A DNA stretch of 46,325 nucleotides from Frankiaceae bacterium. Lineage in GTDB: Bacteria; Actinomycetota; Actinomycetes; JADGOV01. The translations under genes and the position numbers were made by a program. Numbering within the stretch: the stretch's first letter is position 1; every line of letters begins with the position of its first letter. A model generated the notes under the pieces. That model ran no database searches and was not told where the DNA came from. It saw only the letters and a program-made list of their open reading frames with translations. Below, one piece after another: positions 4,067 to 18,797 of this stretch. Location: the NCBI GenBank assembly GCA_017882785.1, contig JADGOV010000012.1, positions 1-46,325 on the forward strand, read 5' to 3'.

Positions 4067-4133
4067 CAGCGCGGTGCCCCGACACCCCTGTCACGGCGCC
4101 CTTGTCCCTACGGAGCACCCGCTGGCCCGCAGG

Positions 4134-4583: not shown

Positions 4584-4680
4584 GCCCTGTATCCAACACC
4601 ACCAGGCGCCGCGGAGGGGGGCCAGCGCCTGCCCTTCTCGAGGACGTTCAGCCGCCGACGGCGACGGGAAAGGATCCGCT

Positions 4681-5336: not shown

Positions 5337-5439
5337 CGCATGTACGCAGGGCCTTCCCCGGCCACTCTCATTGCTGAGGGGCCGCGGTTGCTGAGGAGCT
5401 CCGAGCCGACGTCGCTCGACCGTGGGAGGCACGCTCAGC
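5337..5439 (+). promoter_or_regulatory. Spacer with a TTGCTGAGG direct repeat before the SDR gene
   Basis: TTGCTGAGG occurs at 5371-5379 and again at 5388-5396, 17 bases apart, upstream of the SDR gene at the left edge of the biosynthetic locus. A regulator site is possible; no known operator is recognised. The SDR ribosome binding site (GGGAGG) lies at the end of this spacer. Confidence 0.25.
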
Positions 5440-6315
5440 ATGCGCTATCTCGTCACCGGCGGTAGCGGGCTGTTGGGCCGCCGACTCGTGCAGCGGCTCG
5501 GCCAGGCGGCTGAGGTAGTCGGCACGTTCTGCTCGGCGCCGGTTGCGGGCTTGCCCCTCGTGCCGCTGAATGTCACCGAGCCGTCCCAGGTGAACGCGCT
5601 GATCGGCCCGGGTGCCTTCGATGTCTGCATCCACACCGCGGCCAACCGGAACCTCGAAGCGTGCGAGAGCAACGTCGGCAGGGTCATGCGGCTCAACGTT
5701 GAGGGCACCCGGTTCGTCGCGGAAGCGTGTCGGCGCGCGGGAACGCGCATGGTCTACATCTCCACCGATCACGTGTTCGACGGAGCACCGGAGGTCGCCT
5801 ACACCGAGGAGGACGATCCCCGACCGATCCAGGTGTACGGCTTCACGAAGCTGGCGGGTGAGTACCAGGCGCAGCGCACCGGCGGGGCGCTCTGCATCCG
5901 CGTGCCGGTACTGCACGGCGTGAGCCAACCGGATCAGCAGGAAACCTTCCCCACGCAGGCGCTGCGCCGACTTCGAGCCGGGCACACGGTCCCTGCGGAC
6001 GATCACCTTATCCGCTACCCGGTTCTCCTCGACGACCTCGTCGATGCCGTGGCCGAACTCATCGCCCAGGACGTCGAGGGCATCGTGCATTTCAGCAGCG
6101 ACCGGGGGGTGACGAAATTCGCCTGGGCCCGCCTCATCGCCGAGACGTTCGGCCTCGACTCCTCCCTCGTCCGCGCTCGCCCCGAGGGCGGTCGGGCGGC
6201 ACGACCGCGCGACAACCGCCTGCGGTCCAACCGGCTCGCTGGGCTCGGCATCCGCCCGCCGACCTCGATCGCCAACGCGACGGTATCGCTGCCGCAGTCA
6301 GCTGCCGGGACCTGA
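5440..6315 (+). CDS. RmlD-like extended SDR (NAD(P)-dependent sugar reductase)
   Basis: I choose ATG 5440 (MRYLVTGGSGLLGRRLVQRL), nine bases after GGGAGG, rather than the GTG at 5422. The 291-residue protein has the Rossmann motif GGSGLLG at the N-terminus, CIHTAANRNLEACESN, ISTDHVFDG, and the catalytic YGFTK (YxxxK). It ends with a C-terminal substrate region like dTDP-4-dehydrorhamnose reductase (RmlD). RmlD relatives reduce 4-keto nucleotide sugars, and MAT2B-like members are close in sequence. No other dTDP-rhamnose genes lie nearby, so its substrate is open. It is followed five bases later by the kinase gene, and the pair converges on the RiPP-like operon. Membership of that locus is inferred from position. 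Confidence 0.75.
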   Translation: MRYLVTGGSGLLGRRLVQRLGQAAEVVGTFCSAPVAGLPLVPLNVTEPSQVNALIGPGAFDVCIHTAANRNLEACESNVGRVMRLNVEGTRFVAEACRRAGTRMVYISTDHVFDGAPEVAYTEEDDPRPIQVYGFTKLAGEYQAQRTGGALCIRVPVLHGVSQPDQQETFPTQALRRLRAGHTVPADDHLIRYPVLLDDLVDAVAELIAQDVEGIVHFSSDRGVTKFAWARLIAETFGLDSSLVRARPEGGRAARPRDNRLRSNRLAGLGIRPPTSIANATVSLPQSAAGT

Positions 6316-6320
6316 AGCCG

Positions 6321-7388
6321 GTGGAGGAGCACCGCGATCCCGGTGATGGCGACCGCGGCGTCGTACGCGACATCCGTTGTGCCGGCGGCATCGTGACCAA
6401 ACGCGCGACGGTCGGGCGGGCGAAGCTCCTGGACGAGGTCGCCTGGCTGTCACGGCTTCCGGCGGACGTGCGCGGCTACTTCCCGCGGGTCCTGGCCACC
6501 CGACTCGGGCCAACCTGGGCCGAGTACGACATGCCGTACTCACCGTGGCCCAACCTCGCCCAGTTGCTCCTCGACGGCCAGCTGTCGGCCGACGATGCGA
6601 CCACCGCCGTCGAGCGGATTCTGTGCATGGCGTTCGACCGCATGTACCGGCGCAATACACGGCCGACTCCAGAGTGCTTCTTCCGGCGGAACTACCTGGA
6701 GAAGGTCGAGCGGCGTATGACCGTCGCGGAGGGAGCGTCCCCGCGCTTGGACCATCTGGTACGCGCGCCCACCCTCATCGTCAATGGCAGGACCGTCGAC
6801 AGTCCGCTGCGCCTGATCCGGCGGATCAGCACCGATGAGCAGTTGCTCGGGCGGCTCGCGGCGCCGCGACTTGGCATGGTCCACGGCGATCTCAAGTTCG
6901 ACAACATCCTCCTCGCGCCCGGCCCACTCGAGGCGTCGAGCTTCCTGCTGCTCGATCCGCGCGGGGCAACCTTCGCCGGTGGGGCGGAGGGGGATTATCT
7001 GGACGACATCGCCAAGCTCCGCACGAGCACCCTCGCGCTCTACGATCTCGTCCGAACCGGCCGCATGGTGGTCCAGGTCAGGGGCACGCGGATCTCAACC
7101 GCGCTCGACCAGGCAGCGTCGCCAACGGCGGGTGTGTTCGCGGCGCTCGACACAGCCCTCATGGGGTGGATGCCGGCCTGGGCCGCCGCCCGCAACGACC
7201 CGCAGTGGCGGCTCCGGCTGAGTTTCCTGACCCCGCTGCTCCTGCTCGCCAACGCGCCGTTTCAGCTGGCGCCGGTCACCGAGCAGACCGAGACCGTTGC
7301 GCTGGCGCTCTTCACGGCCGGCGCGCAGCAGCTACAGGCGGCGACGGACCCGTGGAGCCGGGGCTGGCAGCGGGCTAGCAGCAACTAG
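6321..7388 (+). CDS. Aminoglycoside-phosphotransferase-fold (APH) kinase
   Basis: The 355-residue protein has the eukaryotic-kinase-like fold. It has a catalytic loop MVHGDLKFDNILL (HGDLKFDN at about 188-195, with Asp190 and Asn195) and a metal-binding segment LLLDPRG (Asp212) in place of DFG. A likely nucleotide-binding Lys lies in the early strand segment IVTKRATVGRAK. APH-fold enzymes phosphorylate antibiotics, sugars, choline or homoserine-like substrates. Here it could tailor a sugar-like intermediate or protect the host. The GTG start at 6321 lies five bases after the SDR stop. Its own stop shares the tetranucleotide CTAG (7385-7388) with the stop of the convergent PdxJ-like gene. Confidence 0.7.
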   Translation: MEEHRDPGDGDRGVVRDIRCAGGIVTKRATVGRAKLLDEVAWLSRLPADVRGYFPRVLATRLGPTWAEYDMPYSPWPNLAQLLLDGQLSADDATTAVERILCMAFDRMYRRNTRPTPECFFRRNYLEKVERRMTVAEGASPRLDHLVRAPTLIVNGRTVDSPLRLIRRISTDEQLLGRLAAPRLGMVHGDLKFDNILLAPGPLEASSFLLLDPRGATFAGGAEGDYLDDIAKLRTSTLALYDLVRTGRMVVQVRGTRISTALDQAASPTAGVFAALDTALMGWMPAWAAARNDPQWRLRLSFLTPLLLLANAPFQLAPVTEQTETVALALFTAGAQQLQAATDPWSRGWQRASSN

Positions 7389-8113
7389 CCGACAGCCCGA
7401 AGGTAGTCGGGCAGGATGGCCACCGCCCCGGCAACGACGGCGTCGGCAATGAAGCGGTGGCCGACGGACACCTGATCGAGGTTTACCTGCTCGGTCAACG
7501 TGCGGAGCTGGGTCAGCCCGATGTCGTGGGCAGCGTGCACGGCCGTTCCCTGCCCGCGCGCGACGGCTGCCGCGGCGCGCAGGCGCTCGACCTCGGCGGC
7601 CTCCCGCTCGCCGCCGAAAGTCTCGACGAATCCTCGGCAGTTCAGCTCGACGCTGGTCGCGCCCGCGGCGGCGGCGAGCTCGATGCCCTCGGCAGCCGGA
7701 TCGCAGAACACGGAGACGAGGGTGTCCGGCCGAAGGCGCGCGACGGTGGCGCACAGCCGTTCCTGATCCTCAGCACCCGTCCAACCGCGTTGCGTCGTGC
7801 GGTGGCGGGCTTGGAACGGGGTGACGACGAAGGCGTGCACACTCTGCGCCGCCACGACGAGGTCGACCACCTCGGCGCTAAGGTCGCTACCGACATTCAG
7901 CTGCAGCTGACCGGTCCGCACCTCCTCCATCGCAGCCAGCGCCAGCACATCCTCGGGATGAACGTGGCGATGATCCGGCCACGGGTGGACCAGCACGGCG
8001 CGGCAGCCGCCGGCACACAGCGCCGCGGCGACACCCACCAAGTCGGGGTGTTGGCCGCCGCGCGAGGACCGCAGTAGTGCGATCTTGTTCAGACCGATGC
8101 ACAGTGTGGGCAT
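7385..8113 (-). CDS. Divergent PdxJ-like (pyridoxine 5'-phosphate synthase) homologue
   Basis: The 242-residue protein matches PdxJ along its length. GLNKIALLRSSRG aligns with GVNIDHxATLRxARG, VHPWPDHRHV with VHLREDRRHI, VSVFCDPAAEGIELAAAAGA with SLFIDxxxxQIxxAxxxGA, and QVSVGHRFIADAVVAGA with the phosphate-binding NIGHxxIxxAVxxG strand. PdxJ condenses 1-deoxyxylulose 5-phosphate with 3-amino-2-oxopropyl phosphate. His43, His50, Glu157 and His196 are kept. The catalytic Glu of LxLEMA is Asn73, the Glu of VPEKR is Phe100, and the DH of NIDH is missing. Actinobacteria normally make PLP with PdxS/PdxT, so this is probably a neofunctionalised enzyme acting on related phosphates. It is the last gene of the operon, six bases after the AurF-like gene. 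Confidence 0.75.
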   Translation of the reverse strand: MPTLCIGLNKIALLRSSRGGQHPDLVGVAAALCAGGCRAVLVHPWPDHRHVHPEDVLALAAMEEVRTGQLQLNVGSDLSAEVVDLVVAAQSVHAFVVTPFQARHRTTQRGWTGAEDQERLCATVARLRPDTLVSVFCDPAAEGIELAAAAGATSVELNCRGFVETFGGEREAAEVERLRAAAAVARGQGTAVHAAHDIGLTQLRTLTEQVNLDQVSVGHRFIADAVVAGAVAILPDYLRAVG

Positions 8114-8119
8114 GACTGG

Positions 8120-9121
8120 TCAGGTCAACAGTCCGTGTGCGGCGAACGCCTCGTGGGTCGCGGCGTCCTCCAGCGCCCCGACACCCCGGAAGCTGCGGAT
8201 CGTGGCCCGCGCGGCGGCCGCGATGCGATCGGTGGTCCGCGCCTCAAGGTAGGACTCGTCGAGGACCGCGGCCAGGTGCCTGTCCGGCAGCCCCTCCGCG
8301 CGCAGCGCGGCGGCGACGGCCGACAAGTCGGGTTCGAGGAAGGCGCGCACGAAATCCGGGATGCGGGGGCCGACGAGCTGTCGTTCGCGGGCGTCAACCT
8401 GCGGCCACAGAACCTGAAGGAAGCTGCGGAAATAGGCGTGGTGACGGCCCTCGTCGGCGGCATGGTCGGCCACGAGAGCGCGCAGCGCCGGCGGGAGCCG
8501 CTCGTCACGCGGGATGTCGGTGAGGATCGCCGAGACCAGGGTCTCACTGACCACGGCGAAGACGAGGTCGACGAGTCGCCGGCAGTCCGGGGGCAGGCTG
8601 TGCCGGATCTCGTCCAAGCGCCGCACGAATCGCGGCTGCACGGGAAAGAAGGGCGGGACTGCACTCGCCGTGTTGACCTGGTCGATGAAGTCATGGGAGA
8701 ACTGCGCGTGCCACGCCTCGTCCGTGGTGATGGCGAAGGCGTCGGCCTGCATCCGGGCGGGCACGGTGATGCCGGTCCGACCCAGGGAGATGTCGGTCGT
8801 CACCGGAATGACGGCGACCTGCTCGAGGACCTGGGTGAAGTGCAGGTACTGGTACAGCGACCGCACGAGCAGTCTGTGGACGGCCGACCCACCGCGCTCG
8901 GTGAGGAGCGGGTGCCGGGCGGCAGGGGCCAGCTCCGGCGGGAAGAACAGCACCCGACCGCCGTCCTCGCTGGTCACGCTCCCGTCAGCCAGGACGCGCC
9001 GTGGCTGGGTACGGACGCTGGCCCGGCCGTGCCAGTTGAGGAACCTGGAGTCATACGCCTCAGCCGGCGGACCGGTGGCGCAGCCGGGGACGGTGACGCG
9101 CAGCTCGTTCACCGTAGTCAT
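8120..9121 (-). CDS. AurF-type diiron oxygenase
   Basis: The 333-residue protein carries all seven iron ligands of the AurF (p-aminobenzoate N-oxygenase) family at nearly the same spacing: Glu100 (QVLEQVAV), Glu135 and His138 (TDEAWHA), Glu193 (VVSETLV), and His220, Glu224 and His227 (ADHAADEGRHHAYF). In AurF the ligands are 101/136/139/196/223/227/230. Family members oxidise aryl or alkyl amines to hydroxylamine, nitroso or nitro groups; some hydroxylate C-H bonds. In this operon the amine could come from the class III aminotransferase. The ATG at 9121 follows GAGGCGAGA. It sits 34 bases after the PqqD-like gene. Confidence 0.8.
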   Translation of the reverse strand: MTTVNELRVTVPGCATGPPAEAYDSRFLNWHGRASVRTQPRRVLADGSVTSEDGGRVLFFPPELAPAARHPLLTERGGSAVHRLLVRSLYQYLHFTQVLEQVAVIPVTTDISLGRTGITVPARMQADAFAITTDEAWHAQFSHDFIDQVNTASAVPPFFPVQPRFVRRLDEIRHSLPPDCRRLVDLVFAVVSETLVSAILTDIPRDERLPPALRALVADHAADEGRHHAYFRSFLQVLWPQVDARERQLVGPRIPDFVRAFLEPDLSAVAAALRAEGLPDRHLAAVLDESYLEARTTDRIAAAARATIRSFRGVGALEDAATHEAFAAHGLLT

Positions 9122-9155
9122 GTCGTCTCGCCTCAGGGTGGTCGCAGATGGGTGG

Positions 9156-9458
9156 TCAGTAGGTGAGGATTCCGGCGCGGGTGAGCGTCAGGATGAGGTC
9201 CGCGACGTCGTCGAGCGCGCTCGCCCGGTCGATGTCGTACTCGACGCACAGCGCCCCGGCTAGTTCAGCCACCGACCGCTTCCCGTCCATGAGCTTCCAG
9301 ATGAACGTGGCCGACTCGGAGAGCTCCCGCGGCTCACTCGGGCCGGCAACGAGGGTCTTGCTCCGGTAGTTGCGGACCCGGGAGTCCAGGTGCTTGCGAG
9401 GGATCCTGTCCTGGTCGGGCATGCTGTCCTGGTCGGGCATGTTGTCGAATGTCGTCAC
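9156..9458 (-). CDS. PqqD-like RiPP recognition element (RRE) protein
   Basis: The 100-residue protein has a disordered N-terminus followed by a PqqD/lasso-B1-type winged-helix domain. The signs are LSESATFIWKLMDGKRSVAE, LAGALCVEYDIDRASALDDV and ADLILTLTRAGIL. PqqD domains bind the leader of a ribosomal peptide and present it to modifying enzymes; they have no catalysis of their own. This is the strongest pointer that the 22-residue gene at the operon start is a precursor. The start overlaps the nucleotidyltransferase stop (ATGA). The first codons contain a perfect 18-bp tandem repeat that doubles the peptide unit MPDQDS/R. Confidence 0.85.
   Translation of the reverse strand: MTTFDNMPDQDSMPDQDRIPRKHLDSRVRNYRSKTLVAGPSEPRELSESATFIWKLMDGKRSVAELAGALCVEYDIDRASALDDVADLILTLTRAGILTY
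9406..9441. repeat. Perfect 18-bp tandem duplication inside the PqqD-like gene
   Basis: The unit ctgtcctggtcgggcatg occurs at 9406-9423 and 9424-9441. It is in frame and adds MPDQD(S/R) twice, so each copy also offers an extra in-frame ATG. It lies in the unstructured N-terminal tail and should not disturb the domain. Confidence 0.9.
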
Positions 9459-10237
9459 AGCTGCACCTCACCGGCAATGTGCTGGCAGACCCGCAATACG
9501 TCCTCGACCCACTTCTCCGGGGCGGTCGGGTCGAAGTCACGCATGGTCTCGATCGCCCAGTAGTCCTCGAAGGTGAGTTCGGCCGGCGCGACGTCCTCCA
9601 TCCGGCGGGCCCGCCACTTCGCCTGTTCGTTGAACTCCGCATGGCTGGCGAGCAGCGCCTCCACCGCAGCGCCGAAGGCGTAGCGGGCGGCCAGGACGGC
9701 GCTGTGCAGGTCGCCGGCCTGCACCATGCCGACGGCGTCCTCGGTCAGCAAGTCCAACTCGTAGAGCGCCCGCGAGGCGATCATCGTCTTGACCGCGGCG
9801 TCGTCGAACTGCCGTGCCCGCCGGCTCAGCCACTCGGCACCGGTCACGACGTCGGCGAAGGCGAGCCGCTGCATGAACGCGGTTTCGTGCGTGGTCAGCG
9901 ACTCGGCCCGCGCGCGCCCCGCCTCGAACGACGCCCAGGACACCAGGCCGAGTAGCTCATCGACCTGACTGTCCGTCCAGTATTCGACGTCCCAGCGGCG
10001 GCCTTCGGCGATGAAGGCGTGAATGGGCACGGTACCTGGGGCCACCGACACCGGGCCCGTCTCCCCGTCCCCGCGGTTCCACGGCTCAGGAACGATCACG
10101 TACACGTCGACGTCGCTCGACGGGTTACCCCAGCCGCGGACGAGCGACCCGGCGAGGTAGATCGCCTCCGGCGCGGCGGGCAGCAGCTCGTGCTCCGCGA
10201 GAAGCTCGAGGCAACGATGCGGCGTGACGACTGTCAT
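9455..10237 (-). CDS. Minimal nucleotidyltransferase (pol-beta fold)
   Basis: The 260-residue protein has the NTase signature LAGSLVRGWGNPSSDVDVYV: Gly30-Ser31 with Asp42 and Asp44 as the metal-binding DxD. A likely third acidic residue lies in RWDVEYW (Asp83 or Glu85). The C-terminal half is helical, like aminoglycoside nucleotidyltransferases (ANT) and DUF4111 proteins. Such enzymes transfer AMP to hydroxyl groups of small molecules. Related proteins of unclear role occur in some lasso-peptide clusters. Here it could activate an intermediate or act in self-protection. It overlaps both neighbours by ATGA (10234-10237 and 9455-9458), so its translation is coupled. Confidence 0.75.
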   Translation of the reverse strand: MTVVTPHRCLELLAEHELLPAAPEAIYLAGSLVRGWGNPSSDVDVYVIVPEPWNRGDGETGPVSVAPGTVPIHAFIAEGRRWDVEYWTDSQVDELLGLVSWASFEAGRARAESLTTHETAFMQRLAFADVVTGAEWLSRRARQFDDAAVKTMIASRALYELDLLTEDAVGMVQAGDLHSAVLAARYAFGAAVEALLASHAEFNEQAKWRARRMEDVAPAELTFEDYWAIETMRDFDPTAPEKWVEDVLRVCQHIAGEVQL

Positions 10238-12474
10238 GAGAACGCTCCAAGGTGGGCACGGTGGGCGGCCGGGACGGCCGCCGGGCTGGTCAGGAGGAGG
10301 TGGCGATCGAGTGCTTCTTCCAGGAGCGCACCGACGCTGTCGTGGCTGGTGTTACTGAGGGCGAAGACCTCGGCCAGACTCCGGCGGCCGGTGATGGCGC
10401 GGAGGAAGGCGCACCACTCGGAGTCCTCCGTGGCGTCGATCACGAACTCCAACTGTCCGTCCACCGCGAGGTACCAGGTCTCCGACTCCCCGGCGGGGTG
10501 GACGAGCAGCACGTCCTCGGCGAAGTCGAGCACCGCTTCCGGCTGAAGCCGGGGAGCGGGCCGCAGCAGACGCTGCATGTCAGCGCGGTCCCGCGACCAG
10601 TCCTCGATGGTCAATGCCGGAGGAAGCTCGCGGCGGGGCGTTTCGACGTGGGCTGCCGGCAGGTCACGCGTCATGGCTTCGAGCAGCCCGAGGTTGATCA
10701 ACCGCAGCAGGAACTCGACGCCGCCGGGTTCCGGCTGCCGCTGAAGTCGGGACAACAGGTCACGCACCCCGCGCGGATCCAGGGCGTCGACCGCAACCGG
10801 TGCGCTGAGCGCCTCCTCGACGAGCGCCGCGCCGTCACGGGCGAGCATCCGGACGAACGTGCGGTGGGTGAACTCGGCCCCCGCGCCGTGGTAGAAGGGC
10901 ACCTTGGCGCGTTGCGCGACCTCGTGGGGCAGGAGGTCGCGCACCGCGCGGCGGAGGATCCCCTTGTCCCAGAGGAGGCGCGCCCGTCGGGCGGGCGGGA
11001 TCGTCGCGAGGAGTTCGATGATGCGGTGGTCGAGGAAGGGGACCCGGGCCTCGACGCCGTTTCCGGCCGCCGTACGGTCCTCATGCCAGCAGTTGTACTG
11101 CTGGATGTCGCGATACTTCCATGCGACGAATTCCGGGTAGCGGCGCCCGTCATCTCCTCCCGTTCGCCCCGCCAGGAAGCCGTCGGTGAGGAGGGGGACG
11201 TCGTGATGACGCCACCACGGAGCCAGGTCGGGGCGCTGGCTCAGCCGGCGCTGGCGAGCGAACCCGGCGATCGAGGACTCGAAGCCCTCCCATCCGGCGC
11301 CGCCGGAGAGTTGGGCCGAGTAGCCGCCATTGAACTCGTCGCTCGCCTGTCCCAGCAGCATGCCCCGCAGTTCCGGTCGCCGCACCTTGGCGAAGCGGTA
11401 CAGCTCGTACTTGTAGTACTGCTCCGGGCCGCACATCGGTGTTTCGAGGAGCCACAGCAGCCGCTTCCACTCCTCGACATCGGGCACCCGGTCGGCATCG
11501 AAGAGGAGCTGGTGGTTGGGCAGCTGTAAGGCGGAGGCGACGAGATGCGCGTACTCGGCGTCGCCATTGGCGAACGTGCTCCCGTTGAGGACGGTGAAGG
11601 TGTGCAGGCCGCCGATTCTGGCGGCCAGCGCGGCCACGGCCGCGGAGTCGACACCTCCACTGAGGAAGAGCCCGACCTCGGCGTCGGCTGTGGCGCAGTC
11701 GGCGACGGATTCCGACAGCAGATCGCGGTAGCGCTGCACGAAGTCGGCGTCGCTCATCGAACTGGCGCCCTCGAAGGACGGCAGCTGCCAGTACCGGTGC
11801 TGCCGGCGTGCTCCGGTGGCCAGGTCGATGGTCAGGATCGTGCCGGCCGGAACGACCTCGACCCCGCGGAACCAGGACGCCACCGGCTTACGGGTGAACT
11901 CCGGGGCCGCATTGAGGCACTGGTCGGTCAGCGCGGCGTCCCAGTCGAGGGCACGCGGGCAGCGGGGATCGGCGAAGAGGGCCTTGATCTCTGAGGCGAC
12001 GGTGACGCCGTCCGCGTGGCCAGCGACATAGAGGGGCTTGATGCCAAACCTGTCCCGCGCGAGGACGAGACGGTTGCGGCGGCGGTCCCAGAGGATGATG
12101 GCGAACATGCCGTGGACCTTGTCAAGGAACGACAGCCCGTCACGCGCGTAGAGGTGCGCGAGCACCTCACAGTCGGAGCGGGTCCGCCACGGGGTGTCCG
12201 GCCCCAGCGCTGCCCGCAGCTCGCGGTGGTTGTACACCTCGCCGTTCGCGACGAGCACAACCGAGCCGCCGCCGGCCGTCAGCGGCTGGTCGCCGCCGAG
12301 TGGGTCGACTAGAGCGAGGCGGCGGAAGACGAGACCGACAGGGCCGTCCCGAAAGAGCTGCTCGCCGTCAGGGCCGCGGTGGGCGACGGCTCGGCTGAGC
12401 GCGGCAAGCACGTCGTCGCTGCGCTGGTCCAGTGGAGCCCCACCGAATCGCGCCGTGCCGGCGATGCCACACAT
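10234..12474 (-). CDS. AsnB-type glutamine-dependent amidotransferase with extra C-terminal domain
   Basis: Starting at ATG 12474 the product begins MCGIAGTARFGG, with Cys2 as the Ntn nucleophile. The glutaminase residues look complete (FRRLALVDP, VANGEVYNH, RTRSDCEVLAHLY). The synthetase half has the PP-loop LFLSGGVDSAAVAAL. AsnB converts a carboxylate to an amide through an acyl-adenylate; lasso C proteins are relatives that close a ring. At 746 residues it is about 130 longer than usual. The extra tail (VLLVHPAGESETWYLAVDGQ, then WCAFLRAITGRRSLAEVFAL and SVGALLEEALDRHLLL) looks like a second small winged-helix domain. A 10-bp duplication upstream makes the start uncertain: GTG 12480 would bury the Cys behind Met-Ile-Met. 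Confidence 0.85.
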   Translation of the reverse strand: MCGIAGTARFGGAPLDQRSDDVLAALSRAVAHRGPDGEQLFRDGPVGLVFRRLALVDPLGGDQPLTAGGGSVVLVANGEVYNHRELRAALGPDTPWRTRSDCEVLAHLYARDGLSFLDKVHGMFAIILWDRRRNRLVLARDRFGIKPLYVAGHADGVTVASEIKALFADPRCPRALDWDAALTDQCLNAAPEFTRKPVASWFRGVEVVPAGTILTIDLATGARRQHRYWQLPSFEGASSMSDADFVQRYRDLLSESVADCATADAEVGLFLSGGVDSAAVAALAARIGGLHTFTVLNGSTFANGDAEYAHLVASALQLPNHQLLFDADRVPDVEEWKRLLWLLETPMCGPEQYYKYELYRFAKVRRPELRGMLLGQASDEFNGGYSAQLSGGAGWEGFESSIAGFARQRRLSQRPDLAPWWRHHDVPLLTDGFLAGRTGGDDGRRYPEFVAWKYRDIQQYNCWHEDRTAAGNGVEARVPFLDHRIIELLATIPPARRARLLWDKGILRRAVRDLLPHEVAQRAKVPFYHGAGAEFTHRTFVRMLARDGAALVEEALSAPVAVDALDPRGVRDLLSRLQRQPEPGGVEFLLRLINLGLLEAMTRDLPAAHVETPRRELPPALTIEDWSRDRADMQRLLRPAPRLQPEAVLDFAEDVLLVHPAGESETWYLAVDGQLEFVIDATEDSEWCAFLRAITGRRSLAEVFALSNTSHDSVGALLEEALDRHLLLTSPAAVPAAHRAHLGAFS

Positions 12475-12490
12475 GATCACACATGATCAC
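12471..12490. repeat. 10-bp tandem duplication at the amidotransferase start
   Basis: The decamer acatgatcac is present twice (12471-12480 and 12481-12490). It duplicates the start region so that the GAGG motif (12492-12495) is 7 bases from an out-of-frame ATG at 12484, 11 from an in-frame GTG at 12480 and 17 from the ATG at 12474 that gives the MCGIAG N-terminus. Confidence 0.9.
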
Positions 12491-13809
12491 ACCTCTTCCA
12501 GGTCGGGGACGGGCTTCCCGTTCGGGGACGGGGTTCGGTGTCGAGCCGGCCCGATCGGGCGCGACTCGGCCGTGAGGGTGCGGGTGTGCCGCAACGGCGA
12601 GAGCAGGATCGGTACCGGCGCGAGCAGGAAGACGGCCCCCACCACCCAGAGCGCTTCGCGGTTGCCGAGCTCCTCACCGAGTGCTCCCGCGATCACGGCG
12701 CCGACCGGCAGGACGCCCCAGGACACGAAGCGGACGGTCGCGGTGACCCGGCCGAGCAGCTGCGGAGGGGTCACCGACTGGCGGTAGCTGCGGGCAAGGA
12801 CGCTGAAGACGACCGTGCTGGCGGAGATGCCCGCCGTACCGGCGGCGAAGAACAGCAAGCCCGGACCGTCCACAGTCAGCGGGACCAGCAGCACGAGGAG
12901 AGGGCCGGCGGTCGCCGCGAGAAACAGCGCACCGACCGAGCCGAGCCGGGCGCTCAGCCACCCGACGGATGCCGCGCCAGCGATGCCACCGAGTCCCAGG
13001 CCACCGAGCAACACGCCGGCCATGCCCGGGGAAACCCCCACCGTCCGGACCAGGAAGACGACGACCAGCGCTTCCAGGGCGGCTCCGGCGAAGTTGAGGA
13101 CAGCAGCGGAAAGGGTGAGTGGCCCGATCACCGGGTGGCGGCGGACGAACCGCAGGCCGGCCATGATCTGGGAAGGGAGACCGGCCGCCGAGATGCGCGG
13201 CGGCGGTTGCTCATCGCGGCGGATGCCCAGCACGCACGCCACGGACACGGCGTAGCTGCCGACGTCGGCGAGCAGGGCCACCGGGGCGCCGAGCGCTTGG
13301 ATGAGTATCCCGCCGAGAGCCGGCCCGCCGACCTGCGCGACGGACTCACTGCCCTGCAGCCGACTGTTGGCCCGGAGCAGGTCGGCAGCTGCGATGACCG
13401 ACGGCAGATAGGCCTGGAAGGCGACGTCGAAGTACACGCTGGCGGTGCCGACGAGGAGCGCCACGATGATCAGGTGCGCCAGGGAGAGCGTGCCGAACGC
13501 CCAGGCGAGGGGGATGGACAGGAGCGCGAGGCCTCGGGCGGCGTCCGTGGCCAGGATCAGTGGCCGCCGCCGGACACGGTCCACCTGGGCTCCGGAGGGC
13601 AGCCCGAAGACCAACCAGGCGACGTAGCCGGCCGCGGTGACGAGTCCGACCTGGAACGTGGTGGCATCCAGGACGGTCAACGCGACCAGGGGCAGGGCAA
13701 TGCTGGAGACAGCCGTGCCGCACGCACTGACCGTCTGGGCGCCCCAGAGCAGCGCGAAGTCCCGCCGGGCGTCCGCCGAGGCCCGATGCCGGGCTGGCGC
13801 GGATGTCAC
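12487..13809 (-). CDS. MFS exporter of the biosynthetic locus
   Basis: I start at GTG 13809 (VTSAPARHRASADARRDFAL), which follows GGGAGGCGGG. The longer open frame overlaps the phosphatase gene and is not protein-like. The 440-residue protein has about 12 hydrophobic segments and begins LLWGAQTVSACGTAVSSIAL, with the loop FGLPSGAQVDRVRRRPLILA typical of the MFS enterobactin-exporter-like/DHA3 group. A role in export of the locus product is the likely reason for its place in mid-operon. The gap to the phosphatase stop is four bases, and its own stop lies 12 bases before the AsnB-type ATG. Confidence 0.85.
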   Translation of the reverse strand: MTSAPARHRASADARRDFALLWGAQTVSACGTAVSSIALPLVALTVLDATTFQVGLVTAAGYVAWLVFGLPSGAQVDRVRRRPLILATDAARGLALLSIPLAWAFGTLSLAHLIIVALLVGTASVYFDVAFQAYLPSVIAAADLLRANSRLQGSESVAQVGGPALGGILIQALGAPVALLADVGSYAVSVACVLGIRRDEQPPPRISAAGLPSQIMAGLRFVRRHPVIGPLTLSAAVLNFAGAALEALVVVFLVRTVGVSPGMAGVLLGGLGLGGIAGAASVGWLSARLGSVGALFLAATAGPLLVLLVPLTVDGPGLLFFAAGTAGISASTVVFSVLARSYRQSVTPPQLLGRVTATVRFVSWGVLPVGAVIAGALGEELGNREALWVVGAVFLLAPVPILLSPLRHTRTLTAESRPIGPARHRTPSPNGKPVPDLEEV

Positions 13810-13813
13810 GTTG

Positions 13814-14620
13814 TCACCCGCCTCCCGCCGGCCCCAGCACTTCCCGCAGCGCCGTGACAAGCAGCGCCGGAGCCGCCACGACCCAGTCGTTCTCCTCGCC
13901 CTTCGGCACGGCCACCGACAGCCCAGCCTCGCTGGCGACCAGCGCTCCCGCCGCGTAGTCGTAGGGCGCCAGCCCCGTCTCGCAGTACGCGTCGAGCTTC
14001 CCGGCGGCCGCCGAGCACAGGTCGATCGCGGCCGAGCCCGAGATGCGGACGTCGGCGACCCATGGCAGGAGGCGGGCGATGGCTGCGACCTGCCGGGCGC
14101 GAGCCTCACGTGGATAGCAGAAGCCAGTGCCGATAACGGCCTGAGCCAGGACCTCCGTCTGCGAGCCGTGGATGCGGCCTCCGTTGGCCCAGGCACCGCA
14201 CCCGCTGGCCGCGCTGTAGGTGACGTCCAAGGCCGGCGCGTGCACGACGCCCACCAGCGGCGTCCCGCGGGACTCCGCGGCGATGGACACGGCCCACTGC
14301 GGGAGCCCGTGGAGGAAGTTGAGAGTGCCGTCCAGCGGATCCACGATCCAGCGCAGGCCGGAGGATCCACCTATGCTCGCCAACTCCTCCCCCAGCATCC
14401 CGTCGTGCGGACGCTCGGCGAGCAGGAGTGAGCGGATCAGCGACTCGCTGGCCAGGTCCGCATCGGTGACGAAGTCGGTCTCGGACGTCTTCGCCCCAAC
14501 CGGCGTCGCCGTACCCCACCTCCGCAGCAACTCCTCCCCGGCCGCAATTGCCACGCCGGCCGCAAGCTCGGCGATGCGTTCCTGATCGGCGAGCCGGACT
14601 CCGCCGTCGTGCAGGGTCAC
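13814..14620 (-). CDS. Inositol-monophosphatase-family phosphatase
   Basis: From GTG 14620 (VTLHDGGVRLADQERIAELA), overlapping the upstream PfkB stop as GTGA, the protein has 268 residues, the standard length. Family motifs are present: TDFVTDADLASESLIRSLLL, LGEELAS (metal-binding Glu), WIVDPLDGTLNFLHGLPQWA (DPLDGT metal site) and LAPYDYAAGALVASEAG, where the usual WDxAAG is YDYAAG. IMPase-family enzymes release phosphate from inositol, histidinol, fructose-1,6-bisphosphate or PAP, depending on subfamily. Together with the two kinases upstream it suggests a phosphorylated intermediate that is later dephosphorylated. Confidence 0.85.
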   Translation of the reverse strand: MTLHDGGVRLADQERIAELAAGVAIAAGEELLRRWGTATPVGAKTSETDFVTDADLASESLIRSLLLAERPHDGMLGEELASIGGSSGLRWIVDPLDGTLNFLHGLPQWAVSIAAESRGTPLVGVVHAPALDVTYSAASGCGAWANGGRIHGSQTEVLAQAVIGTGFCYPREARARQVAAIARLLPWVADVRISGSAAIDLCSAAAGKLDAYCETGLAPYDYAAGALVASEAGLSVAVPKGEENDWVVAAPALLVTALREVLGPAGGG

Positions 14621-15549
14621 GAGAGCCCGCCGCCGTTGGCGAGTGCGCACGCTGCCCCGGCCCGATCGGGGGGGAGCCTCGGACCCGCTACGCCACACTT
14701 GAGCGCGGCGAGAACAGTCCCGAACTGCAGCCGCGCCGCGAAGTCAGCACCGTTGACGAGTCCGGCGACGTACCCGGCGTGGAAAGCGTCTCCCGCCCCG
14801 GTCGAGTCCACGACCGCGCACTGTCGGCCAGGGACACGCGCAGGTGCGTCAGTCCCGTCGACGCCGACGGCCCCGTCGGCTCCCAGCGTGGCGACGACAG
14901 CCCGCGGCCCTGTGCCCTGCGCTGCGCGTAGCACGCGCAGCGGCTCCGTTTCACCCGTCAGGGTTCGCAGTACCTCCAGAGGTGCGATGAGGTCGCTCAC
15001 CCGGGAGAGGACGGGCAGGGTGCACTCGGACACCTCCTCCAGGTCCGCGACCACCGGCAGTCCCCGGGCCCGCCCGAGGTCGGCGGCTGCCGCCGCCGCG
15101 GATCCCTCGTGATTGTCGAGGTAGACCAGGCTGGCACCGGCCACGAGTTCCGGCGTGATCGTCTCAGCGGTCAGGTGGAGCCGCTTGTCCTTGTACATGA
15201 CGATGGAACGGCTGCCGGTCAGTGAGTCCACGAGGATGGCGGCCCGATGGGCCGGGCAACCGGGCACCGAGATGGACCCGGTCAGGCTCATCCCCACGTC
15301 TTCTAGCGAACGACGGGACAACGCGCTGTCCTCGTCGTCGCCGAACGCGCCGACGTACTCGACGGGAATTCCGAGAATGGCAAGCCCGTGGGCGACGTTC
15401 GCCGCCTGTCCGCCTGCGTACACGGCAAGGGACTCCGCCTGGCTCTTGCGGTCGGGGCTTATCGTGCCAGGCATCCGGAAAACGAGATCCACGGTGTTGT
15501 TGCCGATGACCAGAACCCGCCGTTGCCGGTCAAGAGTGCTTTCCTTCAC
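14617..15549 (-). CDS. PfkB-family sugar kinase
   Basis: The 310-residue protein has the ribokinase/PfkB layout. VLVIGNNTVDLVFRMPG comes first, then the substrate loop YAGGQAANVAHGLAILGIPV at about 44-63. Near the C-terminus the signature VDSTGAGDAFHAGYVAGL has the catalytic Asp of TGAGDAF. These kinases phosphorylate furanose sugars, adenosine, inosine or related polyols with ATP. It begins with ATG 15549, overlapping the P-loop kinase stop (ATGA), and ends in a GTGA overlap with the phosphatase. It may supply the phosphate ester that a PdxJ-type enzyme needs, though this is inference. Confidence 0.85.
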   Translation of the reverse strand: MKESTLDRQRRVLVIGNNTVDLVFRMPGTISPDRKSQAESLAVYAGGQAANVAHGLAILGIPVEYVGAFGDDEDSALSRRSLEDVGMSLTGSISVPGCPAHRAAILVDSLTGSRSIVMYKDKRLHLTAETITPELVAGASLVYLDNHEGSAAAAAADLGRARGLPVVADLEEVSECTLPVLSRVSDLIAPLEVLRTLTGETEPLRVLRAAQGTGPRAVVATLGADGAVGVDGTDAPARVPGRQCAVVDSTGAGDAFHAGYVAGLVNGADFAARLQFGTVLAALKCGVAGPRLPPDRAGAACALANGGGLS

Positions 15550-16166
15550 GACGCGACGGCAGCCTGGTCGAGAAGCCCGCAGTAACGCAGGATCTGCCGC
15601 GACACCTCCTCGACCGAGCAGTCCGTTGTGTCGAGGATGAGCCAGTCCTCCTCCGCGGGCAGCAGAGTGCTCAGGAAGGACTCATAGTCCTGATGCAGGC
15701 CGGGGTTGGCCCGCAGGTACCGGTCACGCGGCGATGTCGCGGCTCGCCGCTCCGCCCGCTGCGCCTTGGTGGCGGCCGTTGAGGTAAGCAGGACGTTGTG
15801 CCCGAACGGCCGGTGCGCCTCGAAAACGTACTCCCCCGGCATGATCTGTTCACCGGGGTAGAAGAACGCGTTCCGGCCGACCTGGGTCAGCCAGTGCCGG
15901 TCCTGGACCCGGTAGTCGTCGGGAGGCGTCAGCATCGACAGGTCGGCGACGAGCGCCGCGGAGTAGTAGTAGTCGCGCGTCCGCATGTCGTCGTACTTCG
16001 CAGCCTCGTTCTCGAGGAACTCCGTCAACGGGCTCGGCTGCACGTAGCAGCGTCCGAGGCTGGCCGGTCGCGCCAATTCGTTGACGAGTTGCGTCAGCCG
16101 GCGGGCGACGGTTGTCTTCCCGACGAAGTCGACGCCCTCGATGAGAACGCCGTCAATGGGCTCCAT
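15546..16166 (-). CDS. P-loop kinase (thymidylate-kinase-like)
   Basis: The 206-residue protein opens with DGVLIEGVDFVGKTTVARRL, a Walker A loop (GVDFVGKT, residues 11-18) in the style of dTMP kinases. It has a DRHWLTQ segment where dTMP kinases have the DR(Y/H) substrate motif, and a basic lid-like segment TKAQRAERRAATSPRDRYLR. The C-terminal half diverges from true Tmk, so the substrate is probably not dTMP. Similar orphan kinases occur in antibiotic clusters. The ATG at 16166 lies 31 bases after the dehydrogenase stop. Its TGA overlaps the PfkB start. Confidence 0.65.
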   Translation of the reverse strand: MEPIDGVLIEGVDFVGKTTVARRLTQLVNELARPASLGRCYVQPSPLTEFLENEAAKYDDMRTRDYYYSAALVADLSMLTPPDDYRVQDRHWLTQVGRNAFFYPGEQIMPGEYVFEAHRPFGHNVLLTSTAATKAQRAERRAATSPRDRYLRANPGLHQDYESFLSTLLPAEEDWLILDTTDCSVEEVSRQILRYCGLLDQAAVAS

Positions 16167-16197
16167 GTGCCTGCCGCCTCCGGTGGTCGTGTCGTGA

Positions 16198-17238
16198 CTA
16201 CTCTGCGGACACCCTGACGATCACCTTCAGCGCCGCGGCATTGGGGGAATACGCCTTCTGGCGCAGATCGCAGCCGAGAAGGCTCAGTGCAGCCGGGACG
16301 TCCTCGAGCGGAACAACGTGCGAGATGAGGCTCGCCGCCGGAATCTGGCCGGAGGCCAGGAGGCTCCGGGCATCATCGAAGGTGCCGAGGGAATCGATCG
16401 ACCCGATGAGGGAGATGCTCCGGTCCGCCAGGAGGCCGAGGTCGATCTCCGCTCGGCGGGTACGGAGCGCGACGAGCAGCACCTGACTGCCGGCGGCCAT
16501 GAACGGAAGGAGCGAGGCGTCGAAGTGCCCGCTCGTGTCCACGAGGATGTCGAAGTCGCCGCCTCCTTCCGCGGTCGCATCCGCCACCGATGCCCGGATC
16601 ACCCAGCCGTGGGGTGCCAGGACCTTCTCGGCGAGGGCTCCTCGATCGGCGGCCGGCTCGATGGCTGTCCCGCGTACGCCGCGCATCCCCAGGGCGAGGG
16701 CGTACAGCAGGCCGACAGGCCCCAGGCCCAGCACCATGCAGGTCGCGGCCGGCCGCACGATGAGTTGGTTGACCCCGGTCAGCACACAGCCCAACGGCTC
16801 GGTCAACGCCCCCTCTTCATAGCTCAGCTCGGGCGGCAGCGGGTGCAGGAAGCGTTCGCTGGTCACGTAGTACTCGGCAAGCGTGCCGTCGCTGCTCACC
16901 CCGGCTTCGGTGCCATCCTTCAGTGCGCAGTGGTTAGTCCGTCCCGTCCGGCAGAACCGACACGTGCCGCAGAAGAAGGTGGGGTTGATGACCACACGGT
17001 CGCCGGCGTGGAAGGAGCGCACGGCGGCGCCGGTCTGCACGACGACCCCGGTGGCCTCATGACCGAGCACCACCGGCGGACGGCTGGCGTCGTAGACATC
17101 CCTGACGATCCCGACGTCAGTGCCGCAGATGCCGCATGCCATGACCCGTACGAGGCAGTCAGTGGGACTGCTGAGCGTCGGCACCGGGCGATCGAGGACG
17201 TCCAGCTGCCAGGGCCCGCTATAGACCAGCGCTCGCAT
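16198..17238 (-). CDS. Zinc-dependent medium-chain alcohol dehydrogenase
   Basis: The 346-residue protein is a full-length MDR enzyme. It has the catalytic-zinc motif MACGICGTDVGIV with downstream LGHEATGVV, the four-Cys structural zinc lobe NPTFFCGTCRFCRTGRTNHC, and a Rossmann segment MVLGLGPVGLLYALALGMRG. Close functional classes are sorbitol/threonine dehydrogenases and the 2-deoxy-scyllo-inosamine dehydrogenases of aminoglycoside pathways. It would oxidise a secondary alcohol to a ketone, a natural partner of the aminotransferase just upstream, whose last 20 bases overlap this start. In the PdxJ context such a step would mirror PdxA chemistry; that is inference. Confidence 0.85.
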   Translation of the reverse strand: MRALVYSGPWQLDVLDRPVPTLSSPTDCLVRVMACGICGTDVGIVRDVYDASRPPVVLGHEATGVVVQTGAAVRSFHAGDRVVINPTFFCGTCRFCRTGRTNHCALKDGTEAGVSSDGTLAEYYVTSERFLHPLPPELSYEEGALTEPLGCVLTGVNQLIVRPAATCMVLGLGPVGLLYALALGMRGVRGTAIEPAADRGALAEKVLAPHGWVIRASVADATAEGGGDFDILVDTSGHFDASLLPFMAAGSQVLLVALRTRRAEIDLGLLADRSISLIGSIDSLGTFDDARSLLASGQIPAASLISHVVPLEDVPAALSLLGCDLRQKAYSPNAAALKVIVRVSAE

Positions 17239-18643
17239 GCTGTGTTCCTTCCACGTCTCGCACGCTTTCTACTTCTCGCACACTCGCGTCACACACACTG
17301 GCGCCCAGCCGATCGACGATCTCCTCCAGGTCGCTCTCGGTCGCGATGAGCGCCGGGCGAACCTTGAGGATGTGGCCGCGGCCGTATTCCGAGGAGCGGG
17401 TGATCAGGTGGTGCCGATCGCGGGCGATGCCCACCACGGCGCGCGCCGTCTCCGGGTCGGGCCTCCCGGCAGCGTCGACGATCTCGACTCCCCACATCAT
17501 GCCGACGCCGCGCACCTGCCCCACCCGCGGCTGCCGTTGGGACAAGGAGGACAGGAGCCCCCCCAGATAGGCGCCGCGCAACCGGACGCCGGCCAGGAAG
17601 TCCCTCGCGCCGACAACGTCCAGCGTCGCTTGCGCTGCCGCGAGGCCCAGGAGGTTGCCGCCACCGGTGAAGGAGTGGTCCGAAGTCTGCAGCACGTCAA
17701 GTTCCGACCGCATGAGGACTGCCCCGATAGGCACGCCCACTCCGCCCAGCCCCTTGGCCAGCACGATGATGTCCGGCCGAATGTCGAAGCGTTCGCTGGC
17801 GAGGAAGTAGCCGGTCCGGCCCACTCCCGTTTGCACCTCGTCCGCGATGAGAAGGATGCCGAGGTCGTCACACACCCGCCGCAGCGCACGGAAGTAGCCT
17901 TTCGGCGGCACGATGTTGCCGCCGTTGCCGAGCACCGGCTCGACGATCAGGCAGGCGGTCGAACCGCGACCGGCCTGCGCCGCGATATCGCTGATGCGGC
18001 GGGCGCAGAGCAACTCACATGAGGGATAGGTCTGGCCGTAGAAGCACGACGCGCAATTGGGCTCCGGCACGCGCAGAATGCCCCCCGAATTCTGCAGCGG
18101 GAAGCCCTCCCGGCGCCACGCCGGCCCCGACATACTCGTGGTCAGTGCGGTCTGCCCATGATGTCCGTGGAAGAGCGTGATGACGTCGGACTTACCTGTG
18201 GCCTTCTGCGCGATCTTGACGGCGCACTCCACTGCGGTCGACCCCGTGGCGTCCCGAATCCACCCCGCCCCCATCTGCGGTGGGGCCAACGCGAGGAGGC
18301 GATCGAGGAGGCTCTGCGCATACGGGCGGGCGAGATCGGAGCTGACGTGGCTCATCAGGCTGGCTTGCTGCTGCACCGCGGCGACCACGTGGGGATGGTT
18401 GTACCCGAGCGGGAGATTGAAGGTCCCGGAGACTGCATCGAGATACTCCGAGCCGTCCGCACAATGCAGACGCAAGCCGTTGCCTCTGGTCACCAGCGGT
18501 ATGGCCGGCATGGTGTCCCCGGACAACGGCGCACGACTGTCCGGGAGCCTTCTGCCGTGCTGGCGTCGCCGACCCGCGGCCACGTCGGCCTCGACGGGTC
18601 GGCTGAGAGCAACAGCCGGATGAATCATCGCGGGCTCAGCCAC
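17219..18643 (-). CDS. Class III PLP-dependent aminotransferase
   Basis: I start at GTG 18643, eight bases after GGAGGAC. The 474-residue enzyme has all fold-type I class III marks: YLDAVSGTFNLPLGYNHPHV, LFHGHHGQTALTT, LLIADEVQTGVGRTGYF and the Schiff-base Lys in IIVLAKGLGGVGVPIG. It has the cysteine-bearing insert EPNCASCFYGQTYPSCELLC seen in some bacterial members. Such enzymes move an amino group between omega-amines or keto-polyols and 2-oxo acids. Sitting directly after the peptide gene and overlapping the dehydrogenase, it probably aminates the ketone that enzyme makes. Daptide pathways also pair such an aminotransferase with a dehydrogenase, but their substrate is a C-terminal Thr, which is absent here. 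Confidence 0.9.
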   Translation of the reverse strand: MAEPAMIHPAVALSRPVEADVAAGRRRQHGRRLPDSRAPLSGDTMPAIPLVTRGNGLRLHCADGSEYLDAVSGTFNLPLGYNHPHVVAAVQQQASLMSHVSSDLARPYAQSLLDRLLALAPPQMGAGWIRDATGSTAVECAVKIAQKATGKSDVITLFHGHHGQTALTTSMSGPAWRREGFPLQNSGGILRVPEPNCASCFYGQTYPSCELLCARRISDIAAQAGRGSTACLIVEPVLGNGGNIVPPKGYFRALRRVCDDLGILLIADEVQTGVGRTGYFLASERFDIRPDIIVLAKGLGGVGVPIGAVLMRSELDVLQTSDHSFTGGGNLLGLAAAQATLDVVGARDFLAGVRLRGAYLGGLLSSLSQRQPRVGQVRGVGMMWGVEIVDAAGRPDPETARAVVGIARDRHHLITRSSEYGRGHILKVRPALIATESDLEEIVDRLGASVCDASVREVESVRDVEGTQHASAGL

Positions 18644-18691
18644 GGGTCTGGTCCTCCTTCGCGGATCTGATGCCGGTCATGCAGTCCTGGT

Positions 18692-18720
18692 GGGCCGTGC
18701 TCCCGGTCGGAGCACGGCCC
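18692..18720 (-). terminator. Perfect 12-bp hairpin between precursor and aminotransferase
   Basis: gggccgtgctcc (18692-18703) and ggagcacggccc (18709-18720) are exact complements around a 5-base loop. It starts nine bases after the precursor stop and ends about 50 bases before the next start. There is no U-run, so it could be a partial terminator or an mRNA-stabilising processing hairpin. Either would raise precursor dosage over the enzymes, a common arrangement in RiPP operons. Confidence 0.75.
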
Positions 18721-18728
18721 CCGAGCCA

Positions 18729-18797
18729 TCAGACCTTGAGCCCCAGGACGGCGCCAAAGCTGACCTTCGTGGCCTCCGGCTTGGTGTACTTCTTCAT
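18729..18797 (-). CDS. Putative RiPP-like precursor peptide, 22 aa
   Basis: An ATG at 18797 preceded by GGGAGGAGG at 8-base spacing, the strongest Shine-Dalgarno sequence in the locus, opens a 22-codon frame ending with TGA at 18729. The peptide starts MKKYTKPEATK and ends FGAVLGLKV. Tyr4 and Pro7 form a YxxP motif, matching the leader motif that lasso B1/PqqD domains bind. There is no Cys, Ser/Thr-rich tail or Asp ring residue; the only side-chain carboxylate is Glu8. If lasso leader numbering is applied (Tyr at -17), only the last Lys-Val would be core. The size matches PqqA (about 23 residues). It is followed by a hairpin and then the enzyme genes. Its function as substrate or scaffold is inferred. 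Confidence 0.75.
   Translation of the reverse strand: MKKYTKPEATKVSFGAVLGLKV

Follow-up and report, generated by a model that had tools for sequence, protein, structure and literature searches.

The stretch of DNA analyzed here, called the window throughout, is contig JADGOV010000012.1 (46,325 nucleotides) of the Frankiaceae bacterium assembly GCA_017882785.1. Our subject is a minus-strand operon within it that carries the gene for a 22-residue peptide together with genes for an AsnB-like synthetase, a nucleotidyltransferase (NTase), a PqqD-family protein, and an AurF-family diiron oxygenase. An earlier sequence-only reading had described twelve minus-strand genes running from the peptide gene to a PdxJ-like gene, and all twelve are present with open frames (positions 18797 to 7385, peptide gene first and PdxJ-like gene last; Table 1). 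Its description of the genes as packed mostly with 4-bp overlaps holds for only four of the eleven junctions (P-loop kinase/PfkB, PfkB/phosphatase, AsnB/NTase, and NTase/PqqD), the remaining seven being -20, +4, +6, +6, +31, +34, and +85. The genome of the window is the sole representative of its order in the genome collection, and the cluster there stands for an isolated lineage. Pfam and NCBIfam scans each covered ten operon proteins, and PDB searches were made in addition.

Table 1. Features of the operon and its convergent neighbor in the window, with the basis of each assignment.
Feature	Position	Strand	Basis and remarks
Candidate 22-residue precursor or carrier peptide, MKKYTKPEATKVSFGAVLGLKV	18797-18729	-	ATG start, GGAGG ribosome-binding site; same-length relatives in other loci
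Intergenic gap with hairpin	18644..18728	-	+85 gap; stem of about 12 bp right after the peptide stop, z -4.0, no U-run
Class III pyridoxal phosphate-dependent aminotransferase	18643-17219	-	PDB search only; alanine/serine racemase and GABA aminotransferase relatives, best E 4.9e-55
Zn-dependent alcohol dehydrogenase (ADH)	17238-16198	-	Nearest NCBIfam model scyllo-inosose 3-dehydrogenase, below cut-off; locus-specific
P-loop small-molecule kinase, weakly thymidylate-kinase-like	16166-15546	-	GVDFVGKT; Pfam E 0.0024, below cut-off
PfkB/ribokinase-family kinase	15549-14617	-	Pfam, NCBIfam; GAGD intact; locus-specific
Inositol-monophosphatase-family phosphatase (IMPase)	14620-13814	-	Pfam, NCBIfam; DPLDGT intact
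Major facilitator superfamily (MFS) exporter	13809-12487	-	Pfam, NCBIfam
AsnB-like Gln-dependent synthetase, 748 residues, with C-terminal domain resembling a RiPP recognition element (RRE; about residues 645-735)	12480-10234	-	Pfam, NCBIfam, profiles, structure model
Pol-beta-type NTase, ANT(4')/kanamycin NTase fold	10237-9455	-	GS..SDVD intact; Pfam, structure model
Discrete PqqD-family RRE protein	9458-9156	-	Pfam, NCBIfam
AurF-family diiron oxygenase	9121-8120	-	Pfam; ligand residues align with AurF (3chh)
Divergent PdxJ homolog	8113-7385	-	Pfam, NCBIfam, PDB; no Glu at the catalytic Glu site; locus-specific
Convergent aminoglycoside-phosphotransferase-like (APH-like) gene	6321..7388	+	Assigned by eye (HGDLKFDN); no Pfam match

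The part of this operon that recurs in other genomes is smaller than the operon itself. Of 49 non-redundant AsnB loci, 43 have the whole of a module composed of the 22-residue peptide, AsnB, NTase, PqqD, and AurF, which is found in ten named actinobacterial genera (Sphaerisporangium, Streptomyces, Actinoplanes, Nocardia, Actinophytocola, Micromonospora, Lentzea, Aeromicrobium, Saccharothrix, and Kitasatospora). In Streptosporangium (L014) the set is likewise complete except that the peptide is longer. NTase and PqqD are both absent from Catellatospora, Symbioplanes, and Nocardioides, which have AsnB and AurF and, in Catellatospora, the peptide as well. Over the 49 loci, AurF is counted at 47 (34 of these having been found by the AurF query itself), NTase and PqqD at 44 each, and an MFS protein above 300 bits at 29. 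A survey by AsnB only, covering 24 Streptomyces loci, gave AurF at 22, NTase at 22, PqqD at 21, and all of them together at 21. NTase and PqqD co-occur at 44 of 44 loci and are adjacent at 42 of these. The sequence-only reading had looked to synteny across genera for support, and such synteny is indeed conserved for this module, whereas the twelve genes are not one conserved unit. ADH, PfkB, and PdxJ belong to the window only, with no relative over threshold at the other 48 loci, six of which have a class III aminotransferase, four a P-loop kinase (L010, L015, L016, and L023), and one an IMPase (L069), making seven, five, and two with the window counted. Likewise, the loci obtained with the AurF query yielded no PdxJ or PfkB match, and their matches to ADH and the class III aminotransferase are scattered and weaker. 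A conserved trio of PdxJ, AurF, and PqqD was considered and rejected, as PdxJ occurs only at the locus of the window. The center of the finding is the module of peptide, AsnB, NTase, PqqD, and AurF, not PdxJ.

These counts were assembled from several searches. The AurF-like protein, used as a query, gave 66 loci among species genomes, to which the proteins of the window were then aligned. Because that search is biased toward AurF-bearing loci, AsnB served as a second, independent query. It gave 24 loci, distributed over 23 of the 392 Streptomyces genomes sampled, and a close homolog in three Streptomyces plasmids, of nine plasmid records matched. The 49 loci comprise the window, 34 found through AurF, the three plasmids, and 11 further Streptomyces loci found through AsnB. 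Thirteen duplicates (L096-L099, L101-L105, L108, L113, L118, and L119) were removed before counting, and five loci with weaker AsnB matches of about 500 bits (L046, L047, L060, L064, and L066) stand outside the counts. Presence or absence of a gene was judged within the fetched stretch of DNA at each locus. Phylum-wide samples searched with AurF (396 genomes), PdxJ (396), and AsnB (296) matched only the genome of the window at the thresholds used, which, set against the many loci from the other searches, indicates that even sampling of a phylum misses rare clusters.

The predicted peptide gene is, judging by its length-matched relatives and their closeness to AsnB, more than a chance open reading frame. 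A peptide of exactly 22 residues and of the form MxxYxKP (once with S in place of K) lies within 7 kb of AsnB at 46 of the 49 loci, including the window. There are 52 such peptides, 49 of them distinct, and 42 of the 52 genes end no more than 150 nt from the AsnB frame; the window is unusual, with 6.2 kb and six genes separating AsnB from the peptide gene upstream. No same-length relatives were found outside 7 kb of AsnB, a weak result given that 7 kb on each side spans most of each locus. No peptide departs from Tyr4 or Pro7, and Lys occupies position 6 in 48 of the 49 distinct sequences. By entropy, positions 19-22 (2.6-3.3 bits, vs 1.2-1.7 for positions 16-18) are among the most variable, and positions 5, 8, and 13 of the leader are nearly as variable. 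A comparison of 63 peptide pairs, in which positions 19-22 changed in 51-89% and positions 16-18 in 0-6%, was set aside in favor of the entropies because the pairs had been picked by identity in residues 1-18, which favors that part. The final residue of all 52 peptides is one of V, A, T, R, K, P, I, C, and S. No Asp or Glu is conserved, and 25 of the 49 distinct peptides have none at all, so that their C-terminal carboxylate would be the sole carboxylate on which AsnB could act if the peptide is its substrate. The only acidic residue in the peptide of the window is E8, in the leader-like part.

Several variations on this theme were encountered. The Streptosporangium variant has 47 residues and still keeps a distance of 19 from Tyr to the C-terminus, and no peptide was found at L021 or L054, looser motifs included. 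Tandem copies, two or three, occur in four loci (L007, L008, L024, and L040). A hairpin with z < -2 follows 39 of the 52 peptide genes; in L007, L008, and L024 it follows only the last copy, and in L040 neither copy. Four of the 22-residue peptides were scanned against NCBIfam and matched no family. The sequence-only reading had proposed that the peptide is a carrier or a minimal core, a suggestion that in part holds up, as it fits the fixed length and the variable last four residues. Overall, the loci have the hallmarks of a system for ribosomally synthesized and post-translationally modified peptides (RiPPs), namely a short precursor with a conserved leader and a variable core, encoded beside an RRE and modifying enzymes.

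In the AsnB-like enzyme, the Cys, Arg, NGE, and SD residues, which we take to be those of the glutaminase site, and the SGGxDS motif are kept in all 37 homologs examined and in the protein of the window (the 11 later loci stand outside this set), and all 38 thus have the intact glutamine amidotransferase and synthetase motifs expected of asparagine synthetase-like (AS-like) enzymes that amidate or nitrilate a C-terminus. By profile and fold, the C-terminal region resembles an RRE, a feature that the sequence-only reading had not mentioned. Profile comparison with the discrete PqqD family gave 87% probability over 81 columns and 91% over 40. In an AlphaFold model of AsnB (predicted local distance difference test score, pLDDT, 88), the C-terminal part aligns with chains of ThcOx, TbiB1, MccB, lasso B1, and PqqD at Z 7-9, although Z near 7 is common in this comparison and the fold evidence alone is insufficient. 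A Foldseek search with the RRE-like domain returned nothing at E <= 0.001.

The structure model of the NTase (pLDDT 93) resembles ANT(4')/kanamycin nucleotidyltransferase (6p01, E 2.6e-7, TM about 0.6), and the GS...SDxD residues are invariant across 41 NTase sequences. Its 13-15 bits pass none of the NCBIfam models for ANT resistance enzymes that were matched, whose cut-offs are 340-505. The co-occurrence and adjacency of NTase and PqqD suggest that PqqD presents the peptide to the NTase. In the AurF-like protein (PF11583, E 5.7e-24), Glu and His residues align with those of 3chh that we take to be its diiron ligands; with 35.9 bits against an NCBIfam cut-off of 620, the protein does not group with 4-aminobenzoate N-oxygenase orthologs.

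A further association concerns nucleotide kinases. Curated Pfam models applied to 23 and 24 whole genomes place a nucleoside diphosphate kinase (NDK)-family gene within 15 kb of 12 of 24 AsnB loci, a thymidylate kinase (TMK)-family gene near 11, and one or the other near 20. The NDK and TMK matches within this distance number 14 and 12, against 0.18 and 0.16 expected on the assumption of uniform gene placement. These counts are relied on instead of an earlier enrichment (33/49 vs 4/32), since the hidden Markov models behind the latter were built from the AsnB loci themselves. The association leads us to favor a nucleotidyl donor for the NTase.

The surroundings of the module vary. On a linear plasmid of Streptomyces scopuliridis (NZ_CP109092.1, L070), a compact row of peptide, asnB, diiron oxygenase, MFS, PqqD, and NTase genes is followed by a regulator and several transposases, with lanM, aconitase, and phosphoenolpyruvate (PEP)-mutase-family genes upstream, as if the module were mobile. 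A second recurrent gene set, an NagA-like amidohydrolase and a cupin-like protein (both recognized by eye and without a Pfam match) with NDK-like genes, stands beside the module in L042-L045, L049, L052, L100, L106, L107, L109, and L110. The NagA-like and cupin-like genes are adjacent in L045, L106, L107, and L109, and some loci of this set also have a formyltransferase, a HAD-family gene, and a class III aminotransferase. At L117, the AsnB and 22-residue peptide genes (3718-8672) have NDK-like, orotidine-monophosphate-decarboxylase-family, and calcineurin-type and histidine phosphatase genes nearby. Representatives of recurrent clusters of open reading frames (4, 7, 8, 11, 13, 25, and 34) have no Pfam match, and cluster 4, which looks antisense, was left out. 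AurF-like relatives of 43-49% identity with no AsnB homolog in the fetched flanks (L004, L006, L019, L025, L027-L029, L031-L033, and others) appear to form a wider AurF-like family with other gene contexts. The five loci with weaker AsnB matches, which encode a more distant AsnB-like protein (29-34% identity) 2-7 kb from an AurF relative, possibly represent a second, related system. In the window itself, the APH-like gene has a possible role in immunity or tailoring and is an uncertain member of the cluster, and an RmlD-like gene also lies downstream on the plus strand, convergent with the operon. A redoxin (AhpC/TSA) frame at 4074-5336 (+) has relatives near the module in L011 and L052, and its link to the module is uncertain.

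Gene content, conservation, the RRE-like fusion, intact catalytic motifs, fixed peptide length, and the kinase association are what was observed, and we are highly confident that the module is a genuine, uncharacterized RiPP-type system. It is also probable, with less assurance, that its enzymes act at the C-terminal carboxylate of the peptide. A fuller scheme, in which the C-terminus would be amidated and then nucleotidylated and oxidized, is offered tentatively as the best reading; its reactions, their order, and the product are what we infer. The peptide would consist of leader-like residues 1-18 with a YxKP recognition motif and four variable C-terminal residues, and would be bound by two RRE domains. 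Using its own fused RRE, the AsnB-like enzyme might activate the C-terminal carboxylate with ATP and amidate it with glutamine-derived ammonia. Next, the NTase, with the discrete PqqD as its guide, would attach to the peptide a nucleotidyl group or a related group linked through phosphoryl; the simplest acceptor would be the terminal amide just formed. The AurF-like enzyme would oxidize a nitrogen. Nucleotide-kinase-like genes (NDK- and TMK-like elsewhere; in the window, the P-loop kinase and PfkB) could supply the activated donor, MFS could export the product, and the aminotransferase, ADH, IMPase, and PdxJ homolog of the window might make or decorate a locus-specific donor.

Microcin C is made with a ThiF-like MccB, not with AsnB and an NTase. 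No ThiF/MccB-type adenylyltransferase was found by Pfam or NCBIfam among the ten operon proteins scanned, the remaining one, the aminotransferase, having been identified by PDB search. The RRE-like N-terminal domain of MccB is a fold match to the RRE-like domain of AsnB, and microcin C resembles the proposed product in being a very short ribosomal peptide whose C-terminus is joined to a nucleotide (PMC6429109). The same paper treats phosmidosine together with EM2487 and A-1100-50, both of which contain hydroxylamine, and describes P-N bonds as labile to acid (PMC6429109). Phosphoramidate nucleotides of the hydroxylamine-bearing kind from Streptomyces display chemistry that AurF and an NTase could make, a likeness in chemistry only. 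A more specific and rather unlikely version of the proposal is a class of RiPPs in which a ribosomal peptide is conjugated to a nucleotide otherwise than in microcin C: AsnB would amidate the peptide C-terminus, a Pol-beta-fold NTase guided by a stand-alone RRE would transfer an unusual nucleotide, AurF would carry out N-oxidation, and dedicated kinases would charge the donor, which at the locus of the window might be a pyridine or amino-sugar 'nucleotide' made via a repurposed PdxJ.

The nearest precedent for the AsnB step is the nitrilobacillin (pes) pathway, in which an AS-like enzyme amidates and then nitrilates a peptide C-terminus, as described in a preprint (PMC13060819). That pathway, together with the amidating TsrC and ScdTA, shares with the module a Gln-dependent AsnB-like RiPP enzyme on a C-terminal carboxylate and iron oxygenases alongside. 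It differs in that its iron enzymes are of the MNIO and alpha-ketoglutarate-dependent HExxH types rather than AurF, two M16 peptidases are encoded, and a conserved R(V/T)DN motif terminates its precursors, vs the free tail seen here (PMC13060819). In the preprint's main text, the words 'nucleotidyltransferase' and 'PqqD' are absent, and orthologs are reported only from Bacillus-related genera. The sequence-only reading knew of no described pathway with this gene set, and none was found in the open-access literature searched; subscription journals lay mostly outside that search and the novelty is provisional.

Several observations weigh against the proposed scheme or parts of it. In the fold comparison of the AsnB C-terminus, chains not known as RREs (a methyltransferase, GdmN, and NovN) do as well as RRE chains or better. 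The NTase shares its fold with aminoglycoside-resistance enzymes and could serve self-protection, and the lasso NTase homolog PsmN of pseudomycoidin has been linked to hexose addition, not to proven nucleotidylation (PMC9266682). The kinases might act on a small molecule instead of making nucleoside triphosphates, their expected counts depend on the uniform placement noted above, and the P-loop kinase of the window is itself only a weak TMK match. No operon gene is a peptidase and none is widely common across the loci (TldD/E proteases were not sought; an Rce1-type protease is found in L013, L036, and L037 only), which leaves release of the product unexplained. NTase and PqqD are both missing from five of the 49 loci, so nucleotidylation may not be universal. 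Two of the five (L111 and L117) have only peptide and AsnB; the other three (L021, L022, and L054) keep AsnB and AurF, and L021 and L054 also lack the short open reading frame. The sequence-only reading had named loci that lose the short frame or PqqD and keep the rest as evidence against its proposal, and these three are partly of that kind, the module otherwise recurring as counted above.

Two familiar assignments for parts of the operon fared poorly. That AsnB closes an isopeptide ring, as in a lasso peptide or another macrolactam RiPP whose core would be very short, is suggested by the YxxP leader motif, the PqqD-type RRE, and the AsnB-like protein, to which lasso loci sometimes add kinase and NTase homologs (pseudomycoidin, PMC9266682). 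The sequence-only reading had already remarked that this RiPP-like set lacks a B2 peptidase, and no B2 protease (PF13471) was found in the genome of the window or within 15 kb of the 24 Streptomyces AsnB loci, some of whose contigs end sooner. The module also has no ring-forming Asp/Glu, its glutaminase site is intact, and its RRE-like domain is fused to AsnB. Two NCBIfam models, one for cyanobacterial lasso cyclases (cut-off 525) and one of the albusnodin/ikarugamycin type (cut-off 300), give the AsnB of the window 183 and 94 bits, respectively; for asparagine synthase it scores 333 against 267. On these grounds ring closure was rejected as barely credible, and for the peptides free of Asp and Glu it is contradicted. 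An ordinary vitamin B6 route through the PdxJ-like gene and its neighbors is scarcely more probable. The Pfam match is strong (E 2.3e-44), but the protein falls below the cut-offs of all six NCBIfam PdxJ models matched (best 164.6 vs 222). The site of what we take to be the catalytic Glu of two PDB PdxJ sequences is occupied by Asn (vs 6w6a) or Gly (vs 3f4n) with no Glu nearby, and in the HxRxDRRH stretch, presumably also functional, two Arg are replaced by Trp and His. The genome also encodes PdxS, over its cut-off, and this homolog is its sole PdxJ-family match; in a sample of 396 genomes from the phylum, a PdxJ-like gene (E <= 1e-15) turned up in that of the window only. The B6 route was rejected on the NCBIfam scores, the catalytic site, and PdxS, and the hydroxypyridine unit proposed by the sequence-only reading is weakened by the missing Glu. 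From its sequence, we read the homolog as a repurposed TIM-barrel enzyme in a locus-specific part of the operon with the aminotransferase, ADH, PfkB, and IMPase.

Two other explanations were weighed. The NTase and the APH-like gene might confer self-resistance, with the operon making an aminocyclitol-like antibiotic and the peptide system a side activity. The ANT(4') fold, the nearest NCBIfam model of the ADH, and the presence of IMPase, PfkB, and an aminotransferase agree with this, yet it seems improbable, as 42 of the 44 loci with an NTase place it next to PqqD while their other neighbors differ, an arrangement that points to an RRE-bound peptide substrate. The peptide might instead be a reusable carrier outside the product, on whose C-terminus a nitrogen or small-molecule unit is loaded, oxidized by AurF, modified, and released. 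Pearlins and other scaffold-peptide pathways (ammosamide C, PMC12715798; 3-thiaglutamate) use a ribosomal peptide in this way, and a putative asparagine synthetase, Amm20, is encoded in the ammosamide cluster as well (PMC12715798); scaffold peptides and RRE motifs, YxxP among them, are described there and in PMC12710340. Unlike pearlins, no PEARL (LanB-like peptide aminoacyl-tRNA ligase) was found by Pfam or NCBIfam among the ten operon proteins scanned, and the peptide has 22 residues, vs 50 for TglA (PMC9016710). A carrier would suit the fixed length, the variable tail, and the want of a widely common peptidase, and small-molecule genes that vary by locus would account for product diversity: the aminotransferase, ADH, and PdxJ in the window; NDK-like and formyltransferase genes in L042-L045, L049, L052, and L100, with a class III aminotransferase in L045, L052, and L100; an O-methyltransferase and a pyruvate-kinase-like gene in L015; and radical SAM, aldo/keto reductase, formyltransferase, and other genes downstream in L071. 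Tandem copies with differing tails (L008 and L040) look more like product diversification, and the compact row of L070 passes from the module directly to the regulator and transposases, though PEP mutase, aconitase, and lanM lie upstream. On balance, we regard a carrier role as less likely than not.

The AsnB-like enzymes of the module may be one coherent group among the approximately 300 uncharacterized RiPP-linked AS-like proteins counted in PMC13060819. By the AsnB criterion, 23 of the 392 Streptomyces genomes sampled have the module, as do other actinobacterial genera, and it may make an unstudied class of natural products in soil bacteria. With its length fixed at 22 residues, the peptide lends itself to a clean test of RRE-guided access to a C-terminus, and this set of enzymes could account for actinobacterial peptide or nucleotide antibiotics that contain P-N and N-O bonds.

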